DNA of 35,042 bases, from NCBI GenBank assembly GCA_028822935.1, contig JAPKCM010000045.1:1-35042 (forward strand), in the 5' to 3' direction. Below the pieces are notes generated by a model. It was not told the origin of the DNA. It made no database searches and saw nothing but the letters and a program-made list of their open reading frames with translations. Shown piece by piece: positions 7,407-34,773 of this stretch. This DNA is from Akkermansiaceae bacterium. Lineage in GTDB: Bacteria; Verrucomicrobiota; Verrucomicrobiia; Verrucomicrobiales; Akkermansiaceae. The translations under genes were made by a program, and so were the position numbers. How positions within the stretch are numbered: the stretch's first letter is position 1; the number at the start of each line of letters is the position of its first letter.

Positions 7407-8633
7407 CTATTCTTCACCTGGGTCTTTCGTGTAGGCCCAGCGATCGGAAATGACATCCTCTATCAACACCGAACGAGGTCCCTTCCCGCCTTCGGGAAAA
7501 CGAAGCCGTAAAATCAGAGGCTTCATGACCCTTGAAAAGTCAATCTCGCTTCCCATCAACTTACGAAAGGAGACAGCAAGATCGCTCTTAGCCGGGAGGT
7601 AGCCGAACAAGTACTCCTCGCTATTTCTCGCCGTAAGCTTAAAACAGAGCCACTTCGTTTCATCCTTAAACTCATAGGCGAAATAGTGATCCCTCGTGGC
7701 GTAGACGCGAAAGTCCATCGCGTTGGAAGGTCTCGAGTTCACGAGTTCATTGAATGCTATCGGCTGGTAGGCCACCTGCGATTCCCAGTCGATCTTAGGG
7801 CCCTCTACCGTCGTCTCCGACATCACTGCGGCCTCACTCCCATCAAAAAATTCGACTGTCATCGCAGTGAAGGGAAGTCGATCAAGCGACAAGACAAGGA
7901 ATTCTGAAACCGATTCATACTTCCGCGGAAGCAACTTATTCCGCAGATAGTAGTCTGCCATCAGAGGTTTCACCCTCTTGGGATGCCTGACAAACTGTAA
8001 TTTTTCTTCCCATGATTCAGCCTCAAAGTATGCCCGCAGCATCTCCTCCAACTCTTCATAGGTTGCTTTGGCGACCACCCGCTGACGCGCTTCCGCGACC
8101 TTCCCGATAGGTCCCTCACTCGGAGCCCATGCGTCTGAGTCCTCCGAGCTAGACTGGGAAGCAGTTTTTGGATTTTCTGCGACGATGAGCTGGTAGGCAC
8201 CCCAAACAAGAAGGATGGCCATCCCTCCAATAAGAAGAATGAACCAGCCCATGGGCACATTTGAGGTAGAAGCGGTAACAACTTCATCCTCCGCCAACCA
8301 ATCAAGGTCCATGGGGGGAAGGAGTTCTTCTCCCACCCGACCGTCGTTCAGCACCGTATTCAGAAATTCACGATCCTCTCGAGCCTTGATCCTCCTCGAA
8401 AAATCCCTTGGCTTTATCTCCTCTTCTTCCTCCAAGCGAACCACTTCTTTTTGGTGATTTTCCTCATCAAGCACACGAAGCACAGGTCCCTGCTCTCCAT
8501 CATCGGGCTCGATATCCGCAACGGGCTTCTTGAAAGCCAAATCACCTTCAACATCAACATCATCGGAATCCACAAACCCCATGAGTTCATCGAACTCCGG
8601 TAATTCTTCTATCTCATCTTGATCGTCTGCCAT
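7407..8633 (-). CDS. Single-pass membrane protein with acidic cytoplasmic N-terminus, function unknown
   Basis: A 408-residue protein starting at the ATG at 8633. Residues 1-120 are strongly acidic (runs such as EEEEE and many Asp), probably disordered and cytoplasmic. One hydrophobic helix (about 127-149, PMGWFILLIGGMAILLVWGA) follows, then a Ser-rich linker and a folded region of about 240 residues with regular Trp/Phe/Tyr-rich strands, presumably periplasmic. No family is recognised. It heads the minus-strand block that ends with trkH and is divergent from the glycosyltransferase at 8717. A weak sigma70-like promoter lies just upstream. I infer an envelope function from position only. Confidence 0.75.
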   Translation of the reverse strand: MADDQDEIEELPEFDELMGFVDSDDVDVEGDLAFKKPVADIEPDDGEQGPVLRVLDEENHQKEVVRLEEEEEIKPRDFSRRIKAREDREFLNTVLNDGRVGEELLPPMDLDWLAEDEVVTASTSNVPMGWFILLIGGMAILLVWGAYQLIVAENPKTASQSSSEDSDAWAPSEGPIGKVAEARQRVVAKATYEELEEMLRAYFEAESWEEKLQFVRHPKRVKPLMADYYLRNKLLPRKYESVSEFLVLSLDRLPFTAMTVEFFDGSEAAVMSETTVEGPKIDWESQVAYQPIAFNELVNSRPSNAMDFRVYATRDHYFAYEFKDETKWLCFKLTARNSEEYLFGYLPAKSDLAVSFRKLMGSEIDFSRVMKPLILRLRFPEGGKGPRSVLIEDVISDRWAYTKDPGEE

Positions 8634-8657
8634 TCTAACTGCCGTTTCAGTGTAGTA

Positions 8658-8686
8658 AATCTAACGACAAATGGGAATCGACGCAA
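8658..8686 (-). promoter_or_regulatory. Weak sigma70-like promoter candidate for the minus-strand envelope block
   Basis: On the minus strand, TTGCGT (8681-8686) is followed after exactly 17 bases by TAGATT (8658-8663). These match three and four of six bases of the sigma70 -35 and -10 consensus. The predicted start of transcription is about 15-20 bases before the ATG at 8633. The match is weak and could be chance. Confidence 0.22.
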
Positions 8687-8716
8687 CCCCAGATCCTCGC
8701 TACATATCCTGTTCAG

Positions 8717-9820
8717 GTGGCTAATCCGCGAATTCTTATCCTCACAGCCGGTTTTGGCGATGGTCACAACAGCGCCGCGAAGCATCTCGCAGAAGCGCTC
8801 GAGTCCGATGCCGATGCCTGTGTGGCCGACCCTTGTGACCTCGGGAGCCCCAGAATAAACCGCTTTGTAAGCCGCGCCTACCGGGAAATCACGACTTACA
8901 CCCCGCGCGTTTGGAAATGGATCTACGATTCAACCGACCGACAGGACTTCACCAAACCCCTCCCCTTTCTCAAGAAAACCGAGGATGCCCTTGGGAAACT
9001 CCTGAAGGAATTCCGACCGGATCTCGTGGTCTCGACCTACCCGTTCTACCCCTACTTACTTGACCGTCACTTCGAAACCCTTCCCAGGGTCCCCATCATC
9101 ACGGTCGTCACTGACTCGATGAAAGTGAATGCAGCCTGGACTCGATCCCCGTCCGATCACTTCCTTGTTACCGACCCCCATACCGCATCATCTCTTGAGG
9201 AAAATGGAGTTTCGGGTGAAAAAATTATCGTCACCGGCTTTCCCGTAAGCTCGCGCTTCGAAGCTCTCCCGCCCGTCAATCAAAGCACGTCGATCAACCC
9301 CTTCCGCGTTCTCTTTTTTCCGACAGCCCGCTCCCCTCACGTAAAGTCGATCATGCGGTCTGTTCTTGAGACTCCCGATTTACCCACCGAAATCACGGTC
9401 GTTCTGGGTAGAAATGTCCGCCGCCTCTACCGCCGCGCCCAGGAACTGAAGCAAGAATTCCACGATCGCGTGAAACTCAAAGGATGGACGAAGCGGGTCC
9501 CTGAGTTGCTCAGTAGCCACCACCTTGTCATTGGAAAAGCAGGTGGCGCGACGGTTCATGAATCAATCGCCGCCCAATGCCCCATGCTCGTGCACCACAT
9601 CGTGCCCGGACAAGAGGAAGGAAACATCGACCTCCTCGAAAAACTCGGAATCGGCTCACTTGCCACCGAAGCGAACGAAATAAAATCCGCCATCGCCTGC
9701 TTGCTTGCAGATGACGCCGCTCTGTGGCGCGCTCAGAAAGAACGCCTCGCGATTCACGCCCGACCAGCCGCCTCCCAGGACGCAGCCGAATTCATCCTCT
9801 CTCTATTACCTAAAAAATGA
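8717..9820 (+). CDS. MGDG-synthase-like GT28-family glycosyltransferase
   Basis: A 367-residue protein starting at GTG 8717. The N-terminal Rossmann half has ILTAGFGDGHNSAAKHLAEA, the acceptor-side signature of monogalactosyldiacylglycerol synthases and related diacylglycerol glycosyltransferases. The C-terminal half has the nucleotide-sugar binding segment GKAGGATVHESIAAQCPML followed by VPGQEEGN, typical of GT28 enzymes. The likely reaction is transfer of a sugar from a UDP-sugar to diacylglycerol or a similar lipid at the cytoplasmic membrane. Sugar and acceptor cannot be read from sequence, and processive glucosyltransferases such as UgtP share these motifs. Its stop overlaps the start of the HAD phosphatase gene by four bases, so the two are co-translated. 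Confidence 0.88.
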   Translation: MANPRILILTAGFGDGHNSAAKHLAEALESDADACVADPCDLGSPRINRFVSRAYREITTYTPRVWKWIYDSTDRQDFTKPLPFLKKTEDALGKLLKEFRPDLVVSTYPFYPYLLDRHFETLPRVPIITVVTDSMKVNAAWTRSPSDHFLVTDPHTASSLEENGVSGEKIIVTGFPVSSRFEALPPVNQSTSINPFRVLFFPTARSPHVKSIMRSVLETPDLPTEITVVLGRNVRRLYRRAQELKQEFHDRVKLKGWTKRVPELLSSHHLVIGKAGGATVHESIAAQCPMLVHHIVPGQEEGNIDLLEKLGIGSLATEANEIKSAIACLLADDAALWRAQKERLAIHARPAASQDAAEFILSLLPKK

Positions 9821-10410
9821 CCTTCCTCTTCGATATCGGTAATGTCCTTCTCAATCTACATTTTGAGAGATTTCACGATGCCGTCCTCCCGGCTCACCTC
9901 GATGATTTCCCCGAAGCGATGCTCTCTCTTAAGGATCCTTATGAGACTGGAGTCATCTCCGATGATGAATTCGTTTCCCGTTCCCTGAACTTCTTAAAAA
10001 GTGACCTCAGTGCCGAAAAGTTCTCCGCAGCTTGGCAGGATATTTTTTCTCCGAACAAGCCCATGTGGGAAGTCGCAGAAAAACTACATACGGAGGGCCA
10101 CCGCCTCATTCTCTTCTCAAACACCAATGCCCTGCATGCCGAGAAGTTCCTCGCCGACCACGCGATTTTCGCTCTCTTTCACCATCATCATTTTTCCCAA
10201 GATGTCGGTGCCATCAAACCGCATCCGGACTTCTACCAGGTTGCCATCGATGAATATGACCTGAGTCCCAAAGAGACGATCTACCTTGATGACCTTCCCG
10301 AGAACATCGCCACCGGCCGCGACTTTGGATTTCAGAGCTTTCAATACGACCTCAATGACCATGAGGCCTGCCTTGAGTGGCTTAAGGAGCATCTGGTTCC
10401 TGCGGTCTAA
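9817..10410 (+). CDS. HAD-superfamily phosphatase (YihX/glucose-1-phosphatase-like)
   Basis: A 197-residue haloacid dehalogenase-like hydrolase. Motif I is FDIGNVLLNL with the nucleophile Asp; the second Asp is replaced by Asn or Gly as in YihX-type proteins (DLGNV). Motif II is LFSNTN, motif III includes the Lys in GAIKPHPDFY, and motif IV is YLDDLPEN. The cap is the small helical type (about 15-80). YihX relatives hydrolyse small sugar phosphates, but the substrate is not shown here. The ATG overlaps the upstream glycosyltransferase stop (ATGA), which suggests the phosphatase may process a sugar phosphate or lipid phosphate connected with that enzyme. That link is inference. Confidence 0.88.
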   Translation: MTFLFDIGNVLLNLHFERFHDAVLPAHLDDFPEAMLSLKDPYETGVISDDEFVSRSLNFLKSDLSAEKFSAAWQDIFSPNKPMWEVAEKLHTEGHRLILFSNTNALHAEKFLADHAIFALFHHHHFSQDVGAIKPHPDFYQVAIDEYDLSPKETIYLDDLPENIATGRDFGFQSFQYDLNDHEACLEWLKEHLVPAV

Positions 10411-10480
10411 AGCTCTGGTCCCACGCCAATCAACAGACAGCCAAGCCAAGCCAGGCGCCAAAGGTCCTATCTAAGGTAGC

Positions 10481-10507
10481 TCAGGGTAAAGCGAAGCGAC
10501 GCCCTGG
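10481..10507. terminator. Weak hairpin between convergent genes
   Basis: tcagggt (10481-10487) can pair with gccctgg (10501-10507) around a 13-base loop, counting G-T pairs at both ends. It lies in the 181-base gap between the HAD gene and the U32 gene, which converge, so it could act on either strand. There is no T-run after it. Nothing else is recognisable in this gap. Confidence 0.22.
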
Positions 10508-10591
10508 GAATTATGATTGGCAGCATCATCGGCAAGACAATTAGCGCCTTCCTCCAAGTCGGCCATCCGCAGCAGTCGAGCAGAGTTCAAA

Positions 10592-12994
10592 CTACCGATG
10601 CACTTCTTCCCGGCGCTGCTCAAGCGTTCCCTTTGTCACACCCAAACGCTCGATCGCGCCGAGCTGGCTCGCGACATCCCTCGCACTTCTCTCTTTGGCA
10701 AAGAAGCGTCGATAGACGTTCACCAGCCGCTGCGCATCTCCCTCGTCTTCTTCAAGAAGCTCCAATCGAAAGCGCTTGAGGCCGAGTTTTTGAAATCCTT
10801 CGACACTTCCCACTCCGGTCTGAGCGCGCCCGTTAAAGAGAGTATTTCGACACCCCACGTCAGCCGTTAAGGTGTGGAGCTGGCCCACCCGATCCCGCAG
10901 CTGAACGTGATGCGTTTCGCAGGGCTTCCCGCAGTCCTTAATACTCGTTCCACTACTCAAGAAGGTGCAGAAAACACAGTGCTCCATATGAAACATCGGC
11001 ATGTGCTGGTGGACGGTCAATTCCAGCCAATCCGCGGGCGTCGCTTCCAACATCTCGCCCACTTGCCCTTCATGGAGGTCGTAGGAAATGGTGAGGTTTT
11101 CAAAGCCTCCGCTCTCCATCAGAAGTTTCGCAGTCAAGGGATTGGCCACGTTGAGGGAAAAGTCGCCAATCAACCTCAAATTCGAATCTTTAAAGAAGGA
11201 AATTGCTCCGAGATTCCGAATGAGAACACCATCAGGCTCGGCCCGTTCGATGATTTTAAAGTAACCCGCCTCGCTCGGTTTTTGAATCCGTGGAGTCGCG
11301 AGAAAAATCTCGGCATCCGTCTCGCGAACAAGACCGACCGCATCCTTGTAGAGCCTAAGATCTTCAAAGTCGCAGTAGAGAAATTTCGTCCCGGCAAAAA
11401 GAGCCCCTTTCACCTGATCCAAGCTGCGACACAGCACGCGAAGCTCTACTTCTGAGGAAGACTCTTTCGCTTTAGGAAGAAGTCCCTGCAAGACCGGCAG
11501 CCCATCACGAACCACCCGCTCTTCCGCAAGGGCCTCGACCAATCGCCGACGACAGCGATTCAGTTCACCCAGAGCAATGATAACCTCACCCTCTAACTCG
11601 TTCGTGACCTTCCCGAGAGAAAATCCCGTGCCTCCAAGCCGACTCAGCTGAGCCACCAGAACCTCTTCGCCAAGTGGCCGCTTCTCCGCTTTTTCTAAAA
11701 GAGTTTCACTCGCTACCTCCTTACCACGGCAGCGCAGAATCAATGGCGCTCCGGCCTTCCCTGTGACGGTAATATCGAGCGCGTCCCCCTTTTCGGTAAG
11801 CCGTCCCCCCTTCCAGGTCTTGCGGACGGCCGCATCAAGTGTCGGGTCACTCGTCTTCCAAAGACCCTGGCCCACTTTCACTCGAGTCCATTCGATCTTT
11901 ACCCGCCGATCAAAGTGCAAGCGATCGCCCTCGATCTTCCATACCATGCCCCCTTGCTCTTGATTGCGATCTTCCCCGGCATCGATCACGAAGCCATTGC
12001 CCGAATCAATCGGCACCGCAGGATCGGAGACTTCCACCCAGCCTTGTCCTGATGCGGTAATCTCGCCCACGTAAGCACCGCGCTTCTTTCCCCATTTCCC
12101 ATGAGTCAACAAAGGATGATTGGTCCCTCCCAACCAACCGGTCGAAAGCCCGCGGGAAAACATCATCTCTAAAATGTGACGATCCCGTGGAGTGATCTCA
12201 ACCGCATCAAGCGCCTTGCGATAGACCCGCGTCACCGCTGCGACATATTCCGGACTCTTGAGTCGGCCTTCGATTTTGAAACTCACCACTCCCGCTTCCA
12301 CGAGATCGGGGATCAAATCAACCGCAGCCAAATCCTGTGGGCTCAAAAGATAGCGAACTTCCCCCATCGGTTTCGTTTCACCATCAACAACCAATTCATA
12401 TGGCATGCGACACGCTTGGGCGCACTCGCCGCGATTTGCCGAACGCTGCCCGAGGCTCTCGGACGTGAGGCACTGACCTGAATAAGCAACGCAAAGAGCT
12501 CCGTGTACGAAGACTTCCAGCGGCACATCATTATTCTTGTTCACTCGGTCAATCTCCTGAACGGAAAGCTCACGCGCGAGCACCGCCCGATCCAGCCCAA
12601 CCAACTCATCGATGAAGGAAAGTCCCTCCGGCGAGGTGATCGTCATCTGCGTGGACGCGTGAATTTCGATTTCCGGCGCGATCTCTCTCACGAGCTTCGC
12701 CGCTCCCAGATCCTGGACAATGACGGCATCCACTCCGGCCCGTGCCATCATCTCGATCTGCGCGACCGCCCCTTCGAGTTCGCTTGGAAACACCAACGTA
12801 TTGAAAGCGACAAATCCCCTGACGCCGTGCCGATGAAGAAAATTTATCAACTCAGGAAGGTCGGCCTCCGTGAAATTATCAGCCCGCATGCGCGCATTGA
12901 AGCGCGGCATCCCGAAGAAGATGGCGTCGGCACCATTGGCAACTGCGGCACGAGCGCAGTCCCAGTTTCCGGCGGGGGCGAGGAGTTCTGTCAC
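10592..12994 (-). CDS. U32-family protein, long RlhA-like (prephenate-dependent tRNA/rRNA hydroxylase group)
   Basis: An 800-residue member of the U32 "peptidase" family. It starts at GTG 12994 with MTELLAPAGNWD, the standard family opening. A TIM-barrel-like half contains the Fe-S type cysteine set C168, C175, C191 and C195 within HGALCVAYSGQC and NRGECAQACRMPYEL, and the conserved SFKIEGRLKSPEYVA. A central beta-barrel (DUF3656-like) region follows, and the C-terminal part has a second Cys-rich segment (HMEHCVFC, DCGKPC, GCRNTLFNG). Studied relatives are RlhA (5-hydroxycytidine at 23S rRNA C2501) and TrhP (tRNA 5-hydroxyuridine), so RNA hydroxylation is more likely than proteolysis. The long form and subfamily leave the exact target open. 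It lies 65 bases downstream of the sulfatase gene. Confidence 0.88.
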   Translation of the reverse strand: MTELLAPAGNWDCARAAVANGADAIFFGMPRFNARMRADNFTEADLPELINFLHRHGVRGFVAFNTLVFPSELEGAVAQIEMMARAGVDAVIVQDLGAAKLVREIAPEIEIHASTQMTITSPEGLSFIDELVGLDRAVLARELSVQEIDRVNKNNDVPLEVFVHGALCVAYSGQCLTSESLGQRSANRGECAQACRMPYELVVDGETKPMGEVRYLLSPQDLAAVDLIPDLVEAGVVSFKIEGRLKSPEYVAAVTRVYRKALDAVEITPRDRHILEMMFSRGLSTGWLGGTNHPLLTHGKWGKKRGAYVGEITASGQGWVEVSDPAVPIDSGNGFVIDAGEDRNQEQGGMVWKIEGDRLHFDRRVKIEWTRVKVGQGLWKTSDPTLDAAVRKTWKGGRLTEKGDALDITVTGKAGAPLILRCRGKEVASETLLEKAEKRPLGEEVLVAQLSRLGGTGFSLGKVTNELEGEVIIALGELNRCRRRLVEALAEERVVRDGLPVLQGLLPKAKESSSEVELRVLCRSLDQVKGALFAGTKFLYCDFEDLRLYKDAVGLVRETDAEIFLATPRIQKPSEAGYFKIIERAEPDGVLIRNLGAISFFKDSNLRLIGDFSLNVANPLTAKLLMESGGFENLTISYDLHEGQVGEMLEATPADWLELTVHQHMPMFHMEHCVFCTFLSSGTSIKDCGKPCETHHVQLRDRVGQLHTLTADVGCRNTLFNGRAQTGVGSVEGFQKLGLKRFRLELLEEDEGDAQRLVNVYRRFFAKERSARDVASQLGAIERLGVTKGTLEQRREEVHR

Positions 12995-13059
12995 GCATGA
13001 AGTCTGTCCTTAGGAACCCTGGGAAGCAAGGTCAGCGAACTCAACACGTGCCTGAATCT

Positions 13060-14481
13060 CTACTTCGATCCTTTTTGAACAATAAGATCGGGATAGCTCC
13101 CAAGACTCAAATCATCACCCACTGTTTTCTGAAGAGCCTTCAGCTTCTTGAGAAGATTCCGGCCCTTTTCAAGATGCTTTCCTTGCTCGATGAGGTCATA
13201 TTTCTCTTGCGGATCAGCATTGAGATCAAAGAGTCGTGCTACCTGACCAATCGGGTAAACGATCAGCTTAAAACCGTCATCAGTGATCTGACGTTGGGAC
13301 AAGCGGTAACCGGTGTAGATGGCATCACGACCTTCAGAGCGCCCTTTCAGAATAGGGATGAAGCTTTGAAACTGCACGTGCTCAGGAACTTCTGCTCCAG
13401 CGGCTTCCAGCGAACTTGGAATCACGTCCTGCAAATAAATAGGAGCCGAAATCCTCTGACCGGCTTCGACTTCAGGGCCGGCAATCGCGAAAGGAACCCG
13501 GATACTGTGGTCATACATATTCTGCTTTCCAATCAACCCATGGTGACCCACCGAAAGTCCGTGGTCCGCCGTGAAAACAATGTAGGTGTTATCGCGCTGC
13601 CCATTCTCTTCGAGCTTCTGAAGAACTCGTCCAATCTGCGCATCGAGATGACTGATGATGGCATAGTATTCCCGACGGTGCGTCTTCACCGCTTGGTAAG
13701 TCCGGGGAAAAGGAGCGAGCGCTTCATCCCGGAGATTTTTTCCGGCCTGCATCGTATTACGATGAGGATAGAGCGGTTGGAAATTTTCCGGCACCTTCAT
13801 CTGATCGATAGGATACATGTCGAGATACTCCTGCGGCGCCTGACGGGGATCATGGGGCGCATTGAAAGCCAAGTAGACGAAGAAGGGCTTATCGATGGTC
13901 TTGGCGTGATCAAGATAACCAATCGCAGTGTCGGCCTCGACCTCGCTCCAGTGCTTGCCCCCTTGCCAAAAGCCGCCTTCATTCTTGTCGGTGGGATCCC
14001 AAGGATCCGGCTGGCCCACGAGTGGGCGATTGTAAGCGTTTTTTCGATCCCTTGGCATTCCTGGACGAACATCCCCGACGTGATCGAAGATCGTATCGGC
14101 CGGGATCCTCACATGCCACTTCCCCGTCATGTAAGTTTCGTAACCCGCTTTTGAGAGCATCTGTGGCCAGGTCTTCTGGGCCGGCACAAATTCCTTATTG
14201 AGAGTCTTCTCCTCGCGATGGGCATACCAGAGCTGACGACCGGTCATGAGCATCGTCCGGCTTGCCACGCAAATCGCGCCATTCCATCCGCCCGGATTGT
14301 AAGCATGGGTAAAGGTGGTCCCGCTTTCGAAAAGGCGATCCAGATTGGGCGTCTTGATCTCTTTATTGCCCAGAGTGCCGATGGCCTCATAAGTCATGTC
14401 ATCGGCGAAGATGAAGAGCAGATTCGGCTTATCCGCCGCTGAGAGATTCAGAGTTAGAAGAAGAGGAAGGAGAAACTTCAT
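13060..14481 (-). CDS. Secreted type I sulfatase
   Basis: The ATG at 14481 gives 473 residues with a signal peptide (MKFLLPLLLTLNLSA) cleaved near residue 16. A TTG three codons upstream is less likely. The alkaline phosphatase-fold metal site shows FADD (about 25-28) and FTADHG with a downstream His. The active-site cysteine is C71 in CVASRTMLMTGR, which fits the formylglycine-forming pattern C-x-(P/A)-x-R in its Ala form. GKWH also fits the family. The enzyme would hydrolyse sulfate esters in the periplasm or outside the cell, probably on a sulfated polysaccharide as in many marine PVC bacteria; the substrate is inferred. Cys-type sulfatases need FGE or anSME for maturation and neither is encoded here. 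hrpB lies 49 bases upstream in the same direction. Confidence 0.92.
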   Translation of the reverse strand: MKFLLPLLLTLNLSAADKPNLLFIFADDMTYEAIGTLGNKEIKTPNLDRLFESGTTFTHAYNPGGWNGAICVASRTMLMTGRQLWYAHREEKTLNKEFVPAQKTWPQMLSKAGYETYMTGKWHVRIPADTIFDHVGDVRPGMPRDRKNAYNRPLVGQPDPWDPTDKNEGGFWQGGKHWSEVEADTAIGYLDHAKTIDKPFFVYLAFNAPHDPRQAPQEYLDMYPIDQMKVPENFQPLYPHRNTMQAGKNLRDEALAPFPRTYQAVKTHRREYYAIISHLDAQIGRVLQKLEENGQRDNTYIVFTADHGLSVGHHGLIGKQNMYDHSIRVPFAIAGPEVEAGQRISAPIYLQDVIPSSLEAAGAEVPEHVQFQSFIPILKGRSEGRDAIYTGYRLSQRQITDDGFKLIVYPIGQVARLFDLNADPQEKYDLIEQGKHLEKGRNLLKKLKALQKTVGDDLSLGSYPDLIVQKGSK

Positions 14482-14530
14482 AGCGACCAAATGTGTCAGA
14501 CACCCCGAATTTGAAAATAAATAAAATGCA

Positions 14531-17071
14531 CTACCTCCAGTTCTGGCGGGGATATCTCCCGGCGAGGTCCTTTTTCATCTGCGCGTATCCCCTTTCCCAA
14601 AATCCCGGAAGATCGATCGTGGTCTGCCAAGGGCGCTGATTGGGAGCGAGAACCTTGACCACCAGGGGATGGCCGTTCGCGATCAAGGGAGTTTCTTGCA
14701 CGTCATAGAGACGCTGCACCTTTTCCTCAATCCAGGGCTCACTGCCATCGAGATAGTTCACCCGGGTGGAAATGCCGTTGCTCAGCTTGATCTTTTCGGG
14801 CGCATAGGCCTCAAGCGATTGCCCTTGGGGCGTCGAGAGCCACTGATGCAAAACGCGCCAAGGATCGCGATCCCGGACTTCTTTAAAGGTCGTCGCCCCC
14901 GCACAAATCTGAGCGATCGCCATCTCACGATCCTCTTCGCTAAATCCCGGCAATTCCAATTCAGGCATCGCTGCGCTTAAAAAACGAAGCCTCGCCAACC
15001 ACCAGTCCACCTTGTTGTCCCATTTCTTGAGACTCAAATCTCCCGCGATCACCCGCTGCGCGAGAATCTCTCCGGCTAGGTTCGGATCCACATCGCCCCC
15101 TTTTTTCTCCTCTAGAACGAGCCCTCGAAACTTCCGTTGTCGCACCGCCATCACGCGACGGGCCACCTCATCAAAAATGGCCCCGTTTTCTTCCACCACT
15201 TCTCCGGGAAATAGCTCTTCCAACCAGGCCTCATCGATTGCGACGCAGCGAGAAAGCCCCACCACCCGTTCGCGGCCCTCAACCTCCATGATTTCAGCAG
15301 CGAGGAAAACAGGGCTCTGCCGCACCGCACTCTTGGCATGCATCTTCCCACGCCGCTTACCAATGACGTGACACACCGCCGTCCCCGCATCTCTCCGAAC
15401 GGCAAGCCGGTCCCCAAAAGCCAAAAGCAGCGCTCGGGCACAGTCCTCACCCCGTTGACGAAAGTCCGGGTCCTTCACCCGAATTCCTCGCTTTTCCATG
15501 ATCTTGACGAATTGCAGGTAGCTCTTCCAGGTCTCACGCGCGCCCCTCGCCAGGACGCCAAGCCCCGTGCACCCTTGGGGAGAAAAATCGACTCGTTGAG
15601 CCTCCAGGAGCGCCAACCATTCACCGCCGAAGTCGTTTTTCCACCCCGGCTCTCCCTCTAAATAATCGATCCATTTCGCCCCCCGATCTCCCCGCATGAA
15701 GATCCCCTCGCCCGAAACACAAGCCGCCACGAAAAGAACCTCACCCGCGCATCCCAACTCCAGCCCCGCAAGAACGAGCCGGGCCAAACGTGGATGCATC
15801 GGAAATCGCGCCATCTCCTCGCCGGCCTTGGTGAGACTCCCGGAAGAGTCGACCGCCCCAAGTCGCTTAAGGAGCTCCTCTGCTTCTTGCTCACGTTCTG
15901 GCTCCGGAACATCAAGCCAGCGAAAGTCAGCAATCTTTCGGGTCCCAAGTCGCTTCAGAAAGAGCGCTGCTTCCGCAAGGTCACATCGGCGCACTTCCGG
16001 AGTCTCAAAGGGTACACGCGCCCGATGATCCGCTTCGCTCCAAAGCCGAATGCAGCTTCCCGGACCCGTCCGCCCCGCACGTCCAGCCCGCTGTTCAGCC
16101 GCCGCCTGGGAAATCTTCATGATCCGCAAGGAATCAAAGCCCCGGTTCGCATCGTAACTCGATTGCCTCGCGAGACCGGAATCGATCACCACTTTGACCC
16201 CCTCAATCGTCACCGAGGTTTCCGCGACATTGGTCGAAAGGATGATCCGCCGTGATTGATCCGCACTAATCGCCGCACGTTGCTTGTCAGGAGCGAGCGC
16301 CGAATAAAGCGTCGCAATCTCCCAGCCTCGCATCCACCCCGATTGACTCAGAATGCCTTCACAACGCCGGATCTCATACATTCCCGGCAAAAAGACGAGA
16401 ACACGGTCTCCTGGACCCAAATCATCGACCACCCCGCGCAACGAACGAGCAACACGATCCCAAACCTCACTCCGCTGCTCGGGCCGACGACGCTTCGACA
16501 CCAGCGCCTCTCCTTGGTGACTTACCTCTACCGGATAAAGCCGACCGCCCGCCTCAACGACATCACAGGGTTCGAGAAAACCCTTCAACCCTCCAATCTC
16601 GAGCGTCGCCGACATCACCACCACCCGCAGATCCGGGCGCAGCGATTCCTGGAGATCAAGAACCCGACCAAGCGCCAGATCCGATGCCAAACGCCGTTCA
16701 TGAAACTCATCGAAAATCACCGCCCCCACCCCCAATAACTCCGGATCATCCAAAAGCATGCGCTGAAGGACGCCATCGGTCATATAAATGATCTCGGTAT
16801 TTCGATTGAAACGGCTGTCAAAGCGCACCGCGTAGCCCACCCCTTCGCCACAGCGCGTCCCCTCGCATTTTGCGACATACTCCGCGAGCAAGCGCGCCGC
16901 CATTCTTCGGGGCTGCACCACTAAAACTCTCCCGTCCACCTCCCCCCGAACCATCGGCGGCACGGTCGTCGATTTCCCGGACCCCGTGGGGGCTTTCAGC
17001 AAAAGGCGACCTGACTTCGCCTTCACCGCAGCCCGAATCTCTTTTTCCACCTCGTGCACTGGCAATCTCAC
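14531..17071 (-). CDS. hrpB: ATP-dependent helicase HrpB (DEAH-like)
   Basis: An 846-residue superfamily 2 helicase, the usual HrpB length. Walker A is APTGSGKST (27-35), motif II is DEFH (121-124) in place of DEAH, motif III is SAT (154-156), and motif VI is QRAGRAGRTGPG (about 331-342). The C-terminal part carries the HrpB-specific region ending in RPWQTTIDLPGFW, then YAQMKKDLAGRYPRQNW, a closing sequence characteristic of HrpB. The in vivo function of HrpB is poorly known; RNA remodelling is assumed from the fold. It starts at GTG 17071 and is divergent from tatA across 116 bases. Confidence 0.95.
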   Translation of the reverse strand: MRLPVHEVEKEIRAAVKAKSGRLLLKAPTGSGKSTTVPPMVRGEVDGRVLVVQPRRMAARLLAEYVAKCEGTRCGEGVGYAVRFDSRFNRNTEIIYMTDGVLQRMLLDDPELLGVGAVIFDEFHERRLASDLALGRVLDLQESLRPDLRVVVMSATLEIGGLKGFLEPCDVVEAGGRLYPVEVSHQGEALVSKRRRPEQRSEVWDRVARSLRGVVDDLGPGDRVLVFLPGMYEIRRCEGILSQSGWMRGWEIATLYSALAPDKQRAAISADQSRRIILSTNVAETSVTIEGVKVVIDSGLARQSSYDANRGFDSLRIMKISQAAAEQRAGRAGRTGPGSCIRLWSEADHRARVPFETPEVRRCDLAEAALFLKRLGTRKIADFRWLDVPEPEREQEAEELLKRLGAVDSSGSLTKAGEEMARFPMHPRLARLVLAGLELGCAGEVLFVAACVSGEGIFMRGDRGAKWIDYLEGEPGWKNDFGGEWLALLEAQRVDFSPQGCTGLGVLARGARETWKSYLQFVKIMEKRGIRVKDPDFRQRGEDCARALLLAFGDRLAVRRDAGTAVCHVIGKRRGKMHAKSAVRQSPVFLAAEIMEVEGRERVVGLSRCVAIDEAWLEELFPGEVVEENGAIFDEVARRVMAVRQRKFRGLVLEEKKGGDVDPNLAGEILAQRVIAGDLSLKKWDNKVDWWLARLRFLSAAMPELELPGFSEEDREMAIAQICAGATTFKEVRDRDPWRVLHQWLSTPQGQSLEAYAPEKIKLSNGISTRVNYLDGSEPWIEEKVQRLYDVQETPLIANGHPLVVKVLAPNQRPWQTTIDLPGFWERGYAQMKKDLAGRYPRQNWR

Positions 17072-20568: not shown

Positions 20569-23271
20569 CTATTTTGCAGAATCGAAGTTCAACCAGGCGA
20601 AGAGGTCCGCCATGGCCTGAAGATCGAGGGCAGCTTCGAAGCCAACGGGCATGAGGGAGGTGCCCGTTTTTGTGAGAGAGCGGATCTCTGAACGGAGGAT
20701 GGGGTGGTCGATCCCGCCGGGGAGTCGGAAGGTGAGATTATTGGCGGTTTCGGAAGCAATGATCCCAATCAAAGATTCCCCTTTCTTCGTCGTGACGGTG
20801 TGGGCGGCGTAGCGGGCCTCGATCGCGGCGGCGGGATCGAGGATGGCACCGAGGAGCCAATCGGAAGGTTTTCCACGCACCAATTCGAGATCGGGACCGA
20901 GTTGCTTTCCCTCACCCTGATAGCGGTGACAAATGGCGCAATTGCTTTGGAAGTGGGCTTGGCCACGTTTGGAATCGCCCTTCGTTTTTGTAATGTCTGC
21001 ATACCGCGCGATGACTTTGGCGCGGTCGGCCGTGCTTGGTTTGCTAAGGAATTTCGGTGTCGGGATCTTCAGTTGTTCGGATTTGTTCAAGATGGCGAAT
21101 AAGTCGCTTTCGGGTCGGAGCGACGACATCACGGCGGCGCGGATCCAATCGTCTTTGGCGTCGCGGGTGACAATCCGAGACAAGATCGGGGTGTTTTTTT
21201 CTGAGGGCCATGCGCCGAGAGTGAAAGCGGCTTGGAGTCGGACGCGTGGGTCGCCGTCGTGTGCGAGGCCGGAAACCGCGGCGAAAAGTTCTTCGTGGCC
21301 GGCTTTCGCGAAAAGTTCGCTTTGCCGGAGGGCTTCGATGCGAATGCCGGGATGAGGATCTGCCAGCGAATTCAGCAACGAGGACGATTTTAGTTTTCCT
21401 AACATGCCCAAGGTGGCGAGCGCCTGGACGCGGACGACGGGGCGATGGCGGAGAGCTAAGAAGGATTCAAGTTGGGAGATTTGCTCTTCGGCGAGATCCC
21501 TTCCTAACAAGAGGCGTTGGGCGGTATCCCGCTGCCAGCCGCTCGAGCTATCGAGGGAGTCAATAAGCTCCCGGGTGGTCATTTTAGAGAGATCGGGAAC
21601 GGGGCGGCGGGGATTTCCGTTTTTTTTCTTTCGGCTGATGCGGTAGATGCGCCCTTTGTCCGAGCCAGCACGGATGTCGAGGCGGGCCTGGGTCTCGGGG
21701 GAAATCCATTCGGGATGTTCGATGACGAAGCGGTAAAAATCAGCGAAGTAGAGCGCACCATCGGGTCCGGTGCGGATGGTCGTGGGGCGGAACCAAGGGT
21801 CGGTGGAAGCGAGGAATTCGGTCTGCTCTTCGCCCACCGCCCGGTCGCTTTTGAAGCCTGAGCCATGGGGTTCCAACACTTCCCGGTGGATACAGTTGTG
21901 GACGGGTTCGGAGATGAAGACGCTGGTGGTGAAGTCCGCGCCGAAGAGGTCATCGCGGTAGGGCGACGGGCTGCAGGCGCTCGTGACGTGGTTGAGTGAC
22001 CAAGGTTGATTGGGGCGCTGGGCAGGGGCGCTGGCAGGGAAAACACGGGTGGAGTTTTCGGAGTTGGCGAGGACGCGCTTCGTGCTTTTGACGGCGAGCT
22101 TGGGATTGCGGCGAAGGTAGCGTTCGGGAAGACCGATATGCCAAAGCCAGGTAGGGTTGTTGTTGCCGAACCAGTTGCCAAAATCATCCCGGCGGCGGTT
22201 GAACTGGGATTGGGAGGAGACCGTTTCGATCTCACCGGTGTCCGGTCGAATGCGGACGTCGCGCCCAGAGATATCGACAACCGTCCCGGTTTTTTGGGAT
22301 TTGACGAGACCGCCGCTATCGCCATTGGCAACATGGATCCAGCCGTCCAATCCCCATTCGAAACCATTGACGCGATGCTGCTGGTTTCCGGGCGAAAATC
22401 CCGTGAATAGGACCTCCTTTTTGTCGGCGCGACCATCGCCATCGGTGTCTTCGGCGTAAAGAATATCGGGAGCGGTGGAGATGAGGACGCCGTTTCGCCA
22501 GGGCATGACACCGGTGGGAAAGGGGATGCCATCAAGGAAGACGGTGGCGGTTTCGTAGCGGCCGTCGGCATCATGATCCTCTAGTAATTTCACCACGCCG
22601 CCGGGCTTCTCTTGGCCATCGATGCCAGACGGATAGTCACGCATCTCGACGACCCAAAGTCGGCCATCGCCACCCCATTGGAAAGAGGCGGGATCGACGA
22701 TCTGAGGCTCGGCGGCAGCGAGTTCGATCTCAAAGCCCTCGGGTAGACGGAACGTCCCGAGCGCGTCGGTCGGTGACAGAGGTGGTGCCGTTTCAAAGGC
22801 AAGGAGGCTTGTGAGCGAGATGCGGGATTGCTCCTCGTTGGACGCGGTGACGAACAGACCATCCTCTTTGATCCGAAGATCTGCACCGCGCAGGGATGGC
22901 GGTTCACCTGCCGAGCCGGTTCTTTTACCGGAGCGGACGGGCTGCGACCATCCCTTCGTCCAACCAAGATCCGGTCTGACTTTGGTCGACCAGAGCGCGA
23001 TCTGAAATTGAGTTTCGTCCGAGAAAAGGAGGTCTTCGAAGCCGTCGCCATTGAGATCGAGAAAGTGGAGGGAGCCGGCATCGATGGCGGAAAAGGGGAT
23101 GCCCGCCGGGAGTTGAAAATCGGAGTCTTTCCAGGTTTTTGATTTCCTGTCGAAAGACTCGATGACAGCTTTACCCTCGCGTTGCACAAAGCGTTCTTCG
23201 GTGCCGTCGTGATCGAAGTCGCTCGCTGCAGCCGATACCGAGAACAGCGTAAAGATGAGTGCGGATCTCAC
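20569..23271 (-). CDS. PVC-type membrane-bound dehydrogenase with HEAT repeats and C-terminal cytochrome c
   Basis: A 900-residue exported protein starting at GTG 23271. A signal peptide (to about residue 17) leads into calcium-binding loops with D-x-D/N-x-D-G spacing (DFDHDGTEE, DLNGDGFED). Residues about 170-545 form the beta-propeller "membrane-bound dehydrogenase" domain typical of Planctomycetes and Verrucomicrobia (GRLWVVEMRDYP, DTDGDGRADKK, DGALYFADFYR). Residues about 560-740 are HEAT-like helical repeats. The C-terminal part is a class I cytochrome c with heme motif CAICH (778-782) and distal ligand candidate M874 in TSLMPVGFE. It should oxidise an unknown substrate outside the cytoplasmic membrane and pass electrons to heme. 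Its GTG overlaps the stop of the dimethylformamidase-like gene (GTGA), so the two are coupled. Confidence 0.88.
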   Translation of the reverse strand: MRSALIFTLFSVSAAASDFDHDGTEERFVQREGKAVIESFDRKSKTWKDSDFQLPAGIPFSAIDAGSLHFLDLNGDGFEDLLFSDETQFQIALWSTKVRPDLGWTKGWSQPVRSGKRTGSAGEPPSLRGADLRIKEDGLFVTASNEEQSRISLTSLLAFETAPPLSPTDALGTFRLPEGFEIELAAAEPQIVDPASFQWGGDGRLWVVEMRDYPSGIDGQEKPGGVVKLLEDHDADGRYETATVFLDGIPFPTGVMPWRNGVLISTAPDILYAEDTDGDGRADKKEVLFTGFSPGNQQHRVNGFEWGLDGWIHVANGDSGGLVKSQKTGTVVDISGRDVRIRPDTGEIETVSSQSQFNRRRDDFGNWFGNNNPTWLWHIGLPERYLRRNPKLAVKSTKRVLANSENSTRVFPASAPAQRPNQPWSLNHVTSACSPSPYRDDLFGADFTTSVFISEPVHNCIHREVLEPHGSGFKSDRAVGEEQTEFLASTDPWFRPTTIRTGPDGALYFADFYRFVIEHPEWISPETQARLDIRAGSDKGRIYRISRKKKNGNPRRPVPDLSKMTTRELIDSLDSSSGWQRDTAQRLLLGRDLAEEQISQLESFLALRHRPVVRVQALATLGMLGKLKSSSLLNSLADPHPGIRIEALRQSELFAKAGHEELFAAVSGLAHDGDPRVRLQAAFTLGAWPSEKNTPILSRIVTRDAKDDWIRAAVMSSLRPESDLFAILNKSEQLKIPTPKFLSKPSTADRAKVIARYADITKTKGDSKRGQAHFQSNCAICHRYQGEGKQLGPDLELVRGKPSDWLLGAILDPAAAIEARYAAHTVTTKKGESLIGIIASETANNLTFRLPGGIDHPILRSEIRSLTKTGTSLMPVGFEAALDLQAMADLFAWLNFDSAK

Positions 23272-30553: not shown

Positions 30554-33280
30554 ATGAAACCTCTTTATATTGCCCTCTTTAGTATTTCTACTGCCTGCTC
30601 CGACATCATTGCCGAGTGGAATCCCAACAAATCCCAGATTGAGAATCAAACTCTCAAAGCCAGCGAAACACCCGAATTCGATACCAACGGCAACCTCATT
30701 TTTTCCAACAACCAGCACCTCATTCTACCCGAGGACTCTGCCAAGAAACTCCCCTTAAATAAGTTCGCCGTCGAAGCTCGCGTCCGTATCGACCAACCGC
30801 AACGATGGGGTGGAATTGTAAGCTACAGCCAAGACAATGGTCAATACGAGAGAGGCTGGATCCTCGGGTTCAACGGAGATCATTTCTCTTTCCGGCTTTC
30901 AACCGGAGGCCTCCTGCTCGAAGCCGCCGCCCCCCAATCATTCGAACCCGGCCACTGGGCACACCTCCTCGGGACATACGATGGCAAAAAAATTCAACTT
31001 TATGTCAACGGAGTCCTCGCTTCCTCCCGCCCAGCCTCCGGACCGATCGTCTTTCCGGACATCCCAACCCCATTCGTCATCGGAGCTTATAAGGACAAGG
31101 ACGAATTCTACCCCATCAATGGCCGGATCTCTTCGGTGCGCATCCTCGACTCCCTCCCCTCTCAAAAGGAACTCGCTGACATCGCCAAAAAATCCGCAGG
31201 TGTTTCCTTCTCCGTCCGCCCTGCGGTCCGATTCCTCTCTCCTGGCAAAGCCCTCCTCAATTGGGAAGCGAGCCACCCAGGCAAAGCCATCGTCGCCTAC
31301 GGCCCAACTCGTAAACTCGGTGCCGTCATCGAATCCACTTCGGAAAACCTCCGTCACGAACTCATTCTCGAGAATCTTCAGCCACACACCCGCTATTCCT
31401 ATCGCATCAGTTCTGAGACCGACGACGGACCCAGATTCAGCCCCATTTACGAATTCGACACCGGCATGAACTACATGCCCAAGAGTCTCGTTGCCGAAAA
31501 CAATCACCCGGCCGCCACCTCCTACCTTGCCGACCTCCCTGCTCAACCTGGCTTCGCCGTCGTTGTCGGCCTCTCGGACGGCTCCCTCACCAAAGCCCTC
31601 GCCGCACAGAGCCTCCTCAATATCACCGCCTTTGATGACGACCTCGAGCGCGTTAACGCACTTCGCAAAAAACTCTACACCGAAGGACTCCACGGAACAC
31701 GCATCACTCTCATTTATCTTCCTGACCTTAAGACAATTCCACTTACCTCCTGCGTTGGCAATCTCGTCTGCACCGAACGCACCACACTCCCATGCCCACC
31801 CTCCGAACTGGCACGTCTCACCCGGCCCAACGGCGGACGCACCGTACTCCCCGACGGCACCGTAACTTCACGTGACCCCATCCCCGGTTCGGGAGAATGG
31901 ACCCATCAATACGGCCCCCCTTCCAACACCGCATACACCGGTGAGCGACTTGGAGGCAGCCAGGCTTCCGGAGACCTCGAGCTTCAATGGATCGGCCGAC
32001 CCGGAGCCAACTTTGGAATCGACCGACAACCTCGAATGTCCGCCCCACTTGCCTCCAACGGCAGACTCTTCCACCAAGGGCTCAACCGAATCATGACACT
32101 CGATGCCTTCAATGGCCAAATTCTTTGGGGCATGGAAATCCCTGACCTCCGCCGCGTCAATATTCCTCACGACTGCGCCAACTGGTGCGCCGATGACAAC
32201 TATCTTTACGTTGCGATCAAAGACCTCCTTTGGGTGCTCGACGGCTCCACGGGAAAACGCATCACGACCTTAAAACTTACAGCCGATCATCGTGACAGTC
32301 ACGAATGGGGATACATCGCCCAGGAAGGAGAGGTCGTCATCGGCTCCTCCGTTCGTCTGGGTGCCGAATTCAAAAAATACTTCGGCGATGCTTGGTATGA
32401 CAAAGTCGGCCGCGACTCAGACACCGCCAACGTCCTCAGCGATAATATTTCTGGCTACTCTAAATCCGATTGGAAAGGTCGCTGGTCTTATGGTCGGGGA
32501 CTCATCATCAATCCCACTATTTCCCTTTCCGATGGAAAGCTTTGCTTTCTCGAATGCCGTAACCCGGATTTGAAAAATGACACCTCCGGACGCGAAGCCA
32601 CCAAAAATCTTTGGAAGGATATTTATACCGTCTGCCTCGATGCCAACACCGGAAAAATCATCTGGGAAAAACCCTTTCCAAAGACCCTCCTGAGGACGGA
32701 TGAAAAAGGCTTCATCCAGGTTTCCTATGGCGCCATGACCAGCCAAGGGTTTCTGGTCACTCTTTCCGAGGGCGACACCAACGAAGAAGGAAAGCCGACC
32801 GGAAAAGGAATCTTCAGCTATCACTACTTCGACCTCGCTGACGGAGGTTTAAACTTCCAATCCCAAACCAATTGGCGAGCCAATCACCACGGGGCCCACA
32901 TCTCTCATCCAGTTGTTTATGAAGACAAAGTCTACACCGACCCCACTGGAATCTCCCTCCCCGATGGCAAACCTCTGGATCACAAATTTGGTCCACGGGA
33001 GGGCTGTTCCGCTGTCGTAGGAACCAGCTACGGCCTCCTCTTGAGAGGAATCGATCGCTGTCTCACCTTCTGGTCCCATGACCAGAAGAAACCGACGCAC
33101 TGGCCTCGCCTCCGCCCATCATGTTGGCTCAGCTTTCTCCCTTCTCAAGGCCTGTTCCTCGTTCCGGAAGGCGGTGGCGGATGTTCCTGCGGTGGCTGGA
33201 TGGAAACCTCCCTCGCCTTCATTCCGAGAAACGATTCCGGCATCCCGGTCTCTAAGAAATCAGAAGAATCTAAAAAATAA
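30554..33280 (+). CDS. Secreted LamG / FN3-like / methyltransferase-like / PQQ beta-propeller protein
   Basis: The ATG at 30554 (MKPLYIALFSISTACSD) gives 908 residues with a signal peptide. An ATG at 30473 would add 27 non-signal residues and was rejected. Domains in order: LamG-like concanavalin fold (about 45-200, WGGIVSYSQ, HWAHLLGTYDGKKIQLYVNG); an FN3/purple-acid-phosphatase-N-like module (about 220-303, LENLQPHTRYSYRISSE); a degenerate class I methyltransferase-like region (about 325-425, FAVVVGLSDGSLTKALA and ITAFDDDLERVNALRKKL) without a normal SAM glycine motif; then PQQ-type propeller repeats (about 445-900, TLDAFNGQILWGMEIP, WVLDGSTGKRITTL, CLDANTGKIIWEKPF). It ends GCSCGGWMETSLAFIP, a pattern I recall from planctomycete relatives. 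PQQ binding is not shown. The partner propeller gene starts eight bases later. Confidence 0.8.
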   Translation: MKPLYIALFSISTACSDIIAEWNPNKSQIENQTLKASETPEFDTNGNLIFSNNQHLILPEDSAKKLPLNKFAVEARVRIDQPQRWGGIVSYSQDNGQYERGWILGFNGDHFSFRLSTGGLLLEAAAPQSFEPGHWAHLLGTYDGKKIQLYVNGVLASSRPASGPIVFPDIPTPFVIGAYKDKDEFYPINGRISSVRILDSLPSQKELADIAKKSAGVSFSVRPAVRFLSPGKALLNWEASHPGKAIVAYGPTRKLGAVIESTSENLRHELILENLQPHTRYSYRISSETDDGPRFSPIYEFDTGMNYMPKSLVAENNHPAATSYLADLPAQPGFAVVVGLSDGSLTKALAAQSLLNITAFDDDLERVNALRKKLYTEGLHGTRITLIYLPDLKTIPLTSCVGNLVCTERTTLPCPPSELARLTRPNGGRTVLPDGTVTSRDPIPGSGEWTHQYGPPSNTAYTGERLGGSQASGDLELQWIGRPGANFGIDRQPRMSAPLASNGRLFHQGLNRIMTLDAFNGQILWGMEIPDLRRVNIPHDCANWCADDNYLYVAIKDLLWVLDGSTGKRITTLKLTADHRDSHEWGYIAQEGEVVIGSSVRLGAEFKKYFGDAWYDKVGRDSDTANVLSDNISGYSKSDWKGRWSYGRGLIINPTISLSDGKLCFLECRNPDLKNDTSGREATKNLWKDIYTVCLDANTGKIIWEKPFPKTLLRTDEKGFIQVSYGAMTSQGFLVTLSEGDTNEEGKPTGKGIFSYHYFDLADGGLNFQSQTNWRANHHGAHISHPVVYEDKVYTDPTGISLPDGKPLDHKFGPREGCSAVVGTSYGLLLRGIDRCLTFWSHDQKKPTHWPRLRPSCWLSFLPSQGLFLVPEGGGGCSCGGWMETSLAFIPRNDSGIPVSKKSEESKK

Positions 33281-33288
33281 ATACCGTG

Positions 33289-34629
33289 ATGCACTCGACT
33301 CTTATTCTTCTCGTCCTTTGCGCCGTGGCCTCCGCCACCCCTTGGCCAACCTACCGGCATGACAATCGCCGAAGCGGAGTCTCTTCTGACACTCTCGCCC
33401 TCCCTCTCGCCGAAGCCTGGACCCACGATGGCGGCGCGCCCCAACAAGCATGGACCGGGCCCGCAAAGTGGGATGCCTACTCCTCAAACGAAGGCCTGCA
33501 ATCAATGCGTAACTTCGACCCCTGCCACTTCACCACGGCCAATCACGGACTCATCTATTTCGGCTCTTCTGCTGACAATGCCGTCCACTGTTTGGATGCC
33601 AAAACAGGAGAAGAAAAGTGGCTTCACTTCACCAATTCCTCCGTCCGCTTTCCGCCCACCCTCGAGGGAGATAAAGCCTGGTTTGGATCTGACGATGGCT
33701 TCGTCTACTGCGCCAACGCCCATACCGGGAAACCTCTTTGGAAAAAGCGTGCCGCTCCCAGCGACCGACTCATTCCCAGCAACGGAAAACTCATTTCCCC
33801 TTGGCCCGTCCGCACCGGCGTCACCGTCGAAAACGGGCGCGCGTGGTTCGCCGCATCTCTCGTCCCGTGGAAAACCTCCTACCTCTGGTGCATCGACTCG
33901 CACTCCTCCGAAGTAGCTTACGTAACCGAACATAAGGAGGTCACCTTGCAAGGTGCGATGTTGGCTGGAGGAGATCGCCTCTACATCCCTCAAGGACGTG
34001 CCGCGCCGATCGCACTCGACCAGGAAAACGGCAAGCTCACCGGCCAGATTGGACAAGCAGGGGGCGTCTTCTGCCTTCTCACCGAAGACAACCAGCTCAT
34101 TGCCGGGCCACCTTCTCAGAAAGAACGTGATGAACAAATCCGCATCGCTGATACCACATCAGGAAAGCGCCTCACTACCTTCAACAACACCAACCGTGTC
34201 GTTGTCACAAAAGGAAAAGCCTTTCTGCACTCCAACGACAAACTCCAATGCCTCGATCTCGTCCGTAAAGGAAAACTCGAAGCCACCATTGCCTCCGAGC
34301 AGGCAGCCCTTAAAAAGCTCGATCCAAAAATCGAAGCCCAGCTTCCCGAGATCGAGAAACTTAAAAAATCCATCAGCCAGTCACGTGCGGACCTCGATGG
34401 CTGCCTTCTTTGGCAAATCGATCACGCCACTCCCGTCGAACTCATCATCGCCGGAGATCAACTCATTGCAGGCCTGAACAACGAAGTGATTATTTTCGAA
34501 GCCTCCACTGGAAAGCAACTTTGGAAAGCTCCCGTCAAAGGGAAAGCCTACGGACTCACTCCCGCCGAAGGCCGCCTCATTGTCTCCACCGACCTCGGAC
34601 ACATCCACACTTTTGCCCCCAAGCCGTGA
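33289..34629 (+). CDS. Secreted PQQ-like beta-propeller protein with internal coiled coil
   Basis: The ATG at 33289 gives 446 residues; a GTG one codon earlier is the alternative. A signal peptide (MHSTLILLVLCAVASA) is followed by TPWPTYRHDNRRSGVSSD, the usual opening of this propeller family. Blades are visible as LIYFGSSADNAVHCLDAKTG, KAWFGSDDGFVYCANAHTG and EVIIFEASTGKQLWKAP. A Lys/Glu/Leu-rich coiled coil (about residues 320-365) interrupts the propeller before its last blade. No catalytic residue can be named. It starts eight bases after the larger propeller gene's stop, so the two are co-transcribed and probably form one unit. Confidence 0.82.
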   Translation: MHSTLILLVLCAVASATPWPTYRHDNRRSGVSSDTLALPLAEAWTHDGGAPQQAWTGPAKWDAYSSNEGLQSMRNFDPCHFTTANHGLIYFGSSADNAVHCLDAKTGEEKWLHFTNSSVRFPPTLEGDKAWFGSDDGFVYCANAHTGKPLWKKRAAPSDRLIPSNGKLISPWPVRTGVTVENGRAWFAASLVPWKTSYLWCIDSHSSEVAYVTEHKEVTLQGAMLAGGDRLYIPQGRAAPIALDQENGKLTGQIGQAGGVFCLLTEDNQLIAGPPSQKERDEQIRIADTTSGKRLTTFNNTNRVVVTKGKAFLHSNDKLQCLDLVRKGKLEATIASEQAALKKLDPKIEAQLPEIEKLKKSISQSRADLDGCLLWQIDHATPVELIIAGDQLIAGLNNEVIIFEASTGKQLWKAPVKGKAYGLTPAEGRLIVSTDLGHIHTFAPKP

Positions 34630-34773
34630 AACGACTCCTCACGAGGGGAGACGATTAGCAATTCCGCCCCCCATTGTGATCACCCGCTCCCAATTTTACA
34701 TGTCGGTATACGGCATCCTAATACCAAGTAGCAGAACAGAAGAGACAAATGCCAGAGTGATGGGGAGTTTTGG
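34630..34773. other. Intergenic stretch after the propeller pair
   Basis: It contains a short imperfect hairpin (ctcct, loop cacg, agggg) just after the propeller stop, but no T-run and no convincing promoter. No open frame here resembles the missing first half of the downstream membrane protein. Confidence 0.4.

Follow-up and report, generated by a model that had tools for sequence, protein, structure and literature searches.

Two-gene propeller proteins of an Akkermansiaceae bacterium and their single-chain relatives

A propeller fold is common to BamB, to tetrathionate hydrolase, to the pyrroloquinoline quinone (PQQ)-dependent alcohol dehydrogenases and to the predicted products of two adjacent genes, P0001 and P0002, in a 35,042-nucleotide stretch of DNA from an Akkermansiaceae bacterium (GCA_028822935.1, contig JAPKCM010000045.1; the whole of the stretch analysed is called the window here). 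BamB is not known to carry LamG, FN3 or a methyltransferase-like region; against the BamB model TIGR03300, whose cut-off is 285.2 bits, P0002 obtains 55.6, and P0001 has no match. Tetrathionate hydrolase and the PQQ-dependent alcohol dehydrogenases stand among the top Foldseek rows, but at only about 11–15% identity in those rows, and the score stays below the quinoprotein NCBIfam cut-off. Class I S-adenosylmethionine (SAM) methyltransferases, whose motif I comprises an acidic residue and GxGxG, share an alpha/beta region with P0001: the profile of our A3 alignment (44 rows, P0001 and 43 relatives) matches the SAM-dependent methyltransferase 3dlc at 5.1e-8 over profile positions 299-414, whereas the P0001 region is short, its motif I is degraded and it lies within an apparently secreted protein. 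Finally, there are unnamed single-chain proteins of Planctomycetes–Verrucomicrobia–Chlamydiae (PVC) bacteria (e.g., G114 C98, L193, L199, L028, L163) that have in common an N-type (P0002-type) propeller, a methyltransferase-like domain and a C-type (P0001-type) propeller, and four of which share LamG and FN3 parts placed between the propellers. They differ from P0001/P0002 in being one chain, in having the N-type propeller first and in lacking an HxxHxxH motif. Literature searches over titles and the starts of abstracts turned up no title describing the P0001–P0002 pair, which may be published all the same.

Judged from sequence, P0001/P0002 is a two-gene branch of the PVC twin-propeller family rather than a single-chain member of it. 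Our best explanation as a whole, to which we give a probability of roughly 0.58, is that the pair is a long-established and conserved version, in two subunits, of a secreted twin-propeller protein whose parts related bacteria make as one chain; the shared domains, the conserved two-gene order, the complete predicted propellers, the invariant cysteine and histidine residues and the linkage to a further gene, VFRY, all support it. The genes and their domains are as follows.

30554..33280, + strand: P0001, gene 1, 908 aa; signal peptide, LamG, FN3, methyltransferase-like domain, propeller; ATG at 30554
30704..31174, + strand: LamG domain, P0001 residues 51-207 (PF13385, 2e-22)
31244..31462, + strand: FN3/purple-acid-phosphatase-N-like domain, P0001 residues 231-303 (PF16656, 4.8e-6, below gathering)
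31508..31864, + strand: methyltransferase-like, short alpha/beta domain, P0001 residues 319-437 (from the model and from Methyltransf_25 in relatives)
31892..33232, + strand: C-type propeller, P0001 residues 447-893 (VIA-align Z 22-25)
33289..34629, + strand: P0002, gene 2, 446 aa; signal peptide and complete propeller with a helical hairpin at residues 324-372; ATG at 33289

As an earlier sequence-only reading of this locus had described, the 908-aa and 446-aa open reading frames lie 8 nucleotides apart, from the P0001 stop to the P0002 start, and the WPTYRHDNRRSG opening, the GSGEWTHQYG segment and the CSCGGW-TSLAFIP ending are all present. Called mechanically, the frames begin at ATG 30473 (P0001) and GTG 33286 (P0002); the signal peptides of both proteins were assigned by eye. 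Because full-length matches to P0001 recur at 74–85% identity across the genus, in 14 other genomes (27 searched, the window's own included), the gene is more than a chance frame. Each of these 15 genomes with a full P0001 follows it with a P0002-type gene, which in G256, as in a named record, is split over two overlapping frames (L131 10536-12102; L087 2701-4267), either by a frameshift or by a sequencing error.

The predicted structures are of good confidence (predicted local distance difference test 84.0 and predicted template modelling score 0.81 for P0001; 87.1 and 0.87 for P0002), and each contains a complete propeller, most VIA-align rows covering residues 447-893 of P0001 (Rv3035, BamB, WD-repeat propellers) and 33-445 of P0002 (the same three kinds and eight-bladed designs). 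The Pfam match of P0002 is to PQQ_2 at 3.4e-18, and P0001 has weaker matches, both below threshold, to fn3 (0.0051) and PQQ_2 (3.6e-5, below gathering); homology between the N-type and C-type propellers is weak by profile (hhalign 64%). The FN3-like domain appears as strands at 219-302 in the P0001 model and as the PF16656 family in 40 of the 44 A3 rows. The sequence-only reading had also proposed a methyltransferase-like fold without a normal SAM site. The region is real in relatives, 16 of the 44 A3 rows matching Methyltransf_25 at E 0.01 or better, and in P0001, which has no methyltransferase match in Pfam, strands and helices alternate in the model and motif I is degraded to VVVGLSDGSL.

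Single-chain relatives and the spread of the two-gene form

The clearest view of the shared architecture comes from G114 C98, where one 1525-aa frame aligns first with P0002 residues 6-442 and then with P0001 residues 58-891 (about 34% identity), and LamG and FN3 stand between the two propellers; L108 (G325), L193 and L199 show this order too in a profile scan. With N for the P0002-type propeller, M for the methyltransferase-like domain and C for the P0001-type propeller, other single chains read N-M-C in the profile scan, and four (L090, L091, L092, L115) read LamG-N-M-C. The window's own genome encodes, on contigs C124 and C32, further chains with the P0002-type part first. Single chains covering both halves thus exist, with the P0002-type half leading and the P0001-type half last, and it was fair to describe the halves as standing here in swapped order. 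The proposal that the C-type half gained its LamG and FN3 modules after the split is excluded by the four fused chains, which hold both between the halves.

The relatives were collected by scanning named genomes with the alignment of the C half, which gave 304 pattern stretches and from these 171 relatives; we kept the 80 best loci. Two genes in the window's order occupy 78 of these 80 loci, two loci are fused and none is reversed; all 78 two-gene loci have the P0002-type gene downstream of gene 1 and on its strand, and in 76 of them between 51 and 475 nucleotides separate gene 1 from the start of the matched P0002-type domain (median of the 78, 94 nucleotides). The two exceptions in spacing are L187, at 1060 nucleotides, and L196, at 3623 nucleotides, where an N-M-C single-chain gene sits between both genes of the pair (7864-15736). 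According to their record labels (nearly all records are metagenome bins), the loci come from Verrucomicrobiota, Planctomycetota, Lentisphaerota, Kiritimatiellota, Omnitrophota (L161) and Nitrospirota (L195). Of the 78 two-gene loci, 77 have an FN3 or LamG-FN3 match, the LamG part being found in 42 and five loci being cut at the contig start; in the Roseibacillus-type loci L097-L106, LamG is replaced by some other sequence over about residues 1-240 of the first gene.

Such a distribution excludes a local or recent split, and the correction can be put more generally: as far as these sequences tell, this two-gene form is old and present in several phyla, and is not the product of a local fission with newly acquired domains. 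It is also a sparse unit scattered across members of those phyla, a P0001 match at 1e-30 occurring in 5 of 240 evenly drawn genomes of the phylum.

Conserved residues and the linked VFRY gene

Two motifs of P0001 stand out in the alignments.

32888..32908, + strand: HxxHxxH of P0001 (H779, H782, H785), invariant in A3 and confined to the two-gene form
33182..33190, + strand: CSC of P0001 (C877, C879), present in 44/44 A3 rows

Four cysteines (C818, C857, C877, C879) are invariant in all 44 A3 rows, and a CxC near the end of the C-type propeller is found by pattern in 105/105 rows of the C set and at the aligned columns in 44/44. The histidine motif occurs in 82 of the 83 C rows labelled two-gene, many of which are near-copies within one genus, and in none of the 22 others. 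The exception, L164_1060, carries the two-gene label in this count and in the larger FastTree, yet is an N-M-C chain; its gene (L164 1-2592) is interrupted by a single in-frame stop. These invariant cysteines and histidines suggest a metal or cofactor site in P0001. In addition, of the 31 residues that make up the internal low-confidence segments of the P0001 model, 13 are invariant (p 8e-6 in comparison with residues 333-895, with the invariant positions transcribed by hand), which would fit a site for a cofactor or ligand, or for a partner.

A candidate partner is encoded next door. In 39 of the 80 loci the gene that follows is VFRY, whose secreted product has a hydrophobic segment at its C-terminus and a cysteine-rich motif of its own, and two more loci have an upstream match (L164 and, weakly, L165); several contigs end too early to show it. 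Its clustered frames carry CxVPVFRY in 36 of 40 and CxxCxC in 31 of 40, and it has no match in Pfam (E 0.01), NCBIfam (E 0.001) or PDB sequences (E 1). Across 260 genomes of the family, VFRY and a P0002-type domain occur together in 37, VFRY alone in one (G332), the P0002-type domain alone in two (G438, G443) and neither in 220; within the genus, 16 genomes have both and 11 neither. Roseibacillus-type genomes that lack an adjoining VFRY mostly carry one elsewhere. On contig C32 of the window's genome (L203 9832-13809), a second VFRY stands directly 5′ of an N-M-C single chain, so that VFRY also accompanies the single-chain form.

Weighing the history and role of the pair

Quick trees were built for the C half, the N half and both concatenated, with 32 two-gene rows of the C set kept, the M-C-N rows left out, seven long or partial rows dropped (L024_169, L196_10781, L181_16794, L168_2, L163_3, L026_65, L164_1060) and the root set manually on the N-M-C rows. 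In all three, the two-gene rows and the fused LamG-FN3 rows fall together on one side of a branch with support 100, apart from the N-M-C rows, and the four fused rows are grouped (98 C-half, 99 concatenated, 73 N-half).

A number of results weigh against an old two-subunit form. The 80 loci were found by patterns of the P0001 subfamily and are the best 80 of the 171 relatives, a sample biased towards the two-gene form; and the form is sparse, as 230 evenly drawn genomes of the phylum yielded 32 P0002-type matches, of which the only one in a short frame (451 aa) is the window's own and the other 31 lie in frames of at least 734 aa. The four fused rows do not make one group in the larger FastTree, their placement beside three two-gene rows (85 concatenated, 96 N-half) would imply re-fusion, and a single two-gene clade is permitted rather than demonstrated by the approximately unbiased (AU) test (p 0.62 C-half, 0.133 concatenated). 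Since each propeller is complete in its model, the proteins could work apart. VFRY, moreover, is missing beside the pair in the Roseibacillus loci L140-L147 and L188, and its co-occurrence with the P0002-type domain is uncorrected for kinship and counts single chains among the P0002 matches.

The most likely history is a single separation of an N-first chain, although the trees allow either fission or re-fusion; the limitation of HxxHxxH to two-gene rows favours a single origin of the two-gene form. The Roseibacillus locus L134 has a P0001-type open frame that is followed by a P0002-type gene of its own and preceded, at a distance of 62 nucleotides, by the end of another P0002-type frame. Such tandem copies make a change of order conceivable without transposition: the swap most likely proceeded by tandem duplication and loss of the outer halves. 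The L134 layout can also be read the other way, for the loss of one stop there could yield the fused order. It is possible, if somewhat doubtful, that the two-gene unit is ancestral in its clade and that the four LamG-FN3 chains go back to a tandem array in which a P0002-type gene fused with the P0001-type gene after it, as the position of the fused rows among early two-gene rows would also suggest. Such a fusion would have to be joined by loss of the histidine motif, which the four fused chains lack and the two-gene rows have, and one two-gene clade stands unrejected by the AU test. Alternatively, there was never a swap. A P0001-type half already N-terminal in a single chain, which the sequence-only reading had named as evidence against itself, does occur in three distant M-C-N frames, L166 (1074 aa), L167 (1001 aa) and L170 (ending at the contig end), and the two-gene unit could descend from a chain of that order. 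We find this improbable: the three match both profiles weakly (66-141 bits), and L167 and L170, which a very long branch (2.76) separates from every other row of the larger FastTree (L166 being too partial for inclusion), look like poor candidates for a direct source.

Whether one calls the pair a complex is a separate matter. Fusion of two proteins in some genomes hints at their interaction where they are separate, and by analogy with the fused relatives P0001 and P0002 probably assemble; the presence of a complete predicted propeller in each half makes their physical assembly plausible and not required. The conserved P0002 loop 55-78 and the P0001 segments 449-453, 484-493 and 872-884 are candidates for an interface. 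Two independent secreted propeller proteins that merely share an operon would suit the good confidence with which both propellers are predicted, but the constant order, the close spacing in 76 of the 78 two-gene loci and the fused relatives speak for more than that, and we regard independence as rather unlikely. Far less probable still is a PQQ-dependent dehydrogenase, for which PQQ_2 and quinoprotein matches in fold and profile could be cited: P0002 attains 26.2 bits where TIGR03075 demands 480.05, and P0001 has no NCBIfam match up to E 1. We read the pair as a conserved envelope complex. In a two-subunit form of this kind, P0001 and P0002 would both be exported and would come together in the cell envelope as a single complex that does the work of the tandem chain; a metal or cofactor would sit on the Cys4/His3 cluster of the P0001 propeller, the methyltransferase-like domain may survive as a remnant with a ligand-binding or structural role, LamG, where it occurs, might bind a surface glycan, and VFRY would act with the pair at the membrane.

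The wider operon and the 3′ end of the window

Beyond VFRY, clusters of neighbouring proteins, often encoded downstream of the pair, recur at the 81 loci (the window included, many of them close relatives): ABC (ATP-binding cassette) ATPases of two kinds (25), ModA-like (24), ModB-like (24), FtsX-like (23, with CNC in 22 of the 23 frames) and ThiF-like (21). The ModA-like P0004 exceeds its TIGR01256 cut-off (102.8 against 62.5 bits), and for the other neighbours no NCBIfam row among the matches listed reaches its own. At L121 12065-18875 and L203 2759-9545, the cluster consists of VFRY, an FtsX-like permease, a ModC/ModB/ModA-like importer, a MoeB/ThiF-like enzyme and a LolD-like ATPase. It is tempting, and distinctly speculative, to see here an envelope metalloprotein system in which both propellers together make up an enzyme or a receptor with a metal or metal–sulfur cofactor at the Cys4/His3 site, VFRY is a membrane-anchored partner, the ModABC-like importer, MoeB/ThiF-like enzyme and FtsX/LolD-like transporter supply or insert the cofactor, and the histidine triad arose with the split; we think such a system unlikely as a whole. 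A role in defence was considered and set aside, as PADLOC returned no family for P0001 or P0002 and no match for VFRY; the ThiF-like protein gave E1-E2 matches and the FtsX-like one a single weak match.

In the window itself, this arrangement is broken just past P0002.

34555..34640, + strand: 86-nucleotide near-repeat of C32:2688-2773 (the start of the intact VFRY), at the P0002/VFRY junction
34626..34658, + strand: VFRY stub (third gene), whose GTG overlaps the P0002 stop, with five matching codons and then a stop, by comparison with L121 and C32
34988..35042, no strand assigned: 55 nucleotides at the contig end identical to the first 55 of C32 (L203 1-55) in the same genome

C32 (L203) holds an intact VFRY, then FtsX-like, ModC-, ModB- and ModA-like, ThiF-like and ATPase genes, and after these the second VFRY and N-M-C gene, and from the shared end the window's contig probably adjoins it. 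The truncated VFRY start and the near-repeat point to about 3 kb of inserted DNA in the operon, and such an insertion between P0002 and VFRY is the simplest reading, the alternative being an assembly error; the putative insertion includes an 852-aa gene with DAO, FAO_M and GCV_T domains. Relocation of the pair away from its usual neighbours, hinted at by the stub and by the VFRY on C32, was rejected, the 55-nucleotide identity making an insertion likelier. Elsewhere in the window, positions 20569-23271 encode a DUF7133-HEAT-cytochrome c protein adjoining DMFA2_C and SASA esterase genes.

Taken as a natural example, the pair is a clear one of the same domains being encoded either as one chain or as two genes in the opposite order, an arrangement held across phyla. 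The linked set of genes to which it belongs, comprising the propeller pair, VFRY, transporters and a MoeB/ThiF-like enzyme, recurs in PVC bacteria, and the conserved cysteine and histidine residues of P0001 offer direct targets for testing.

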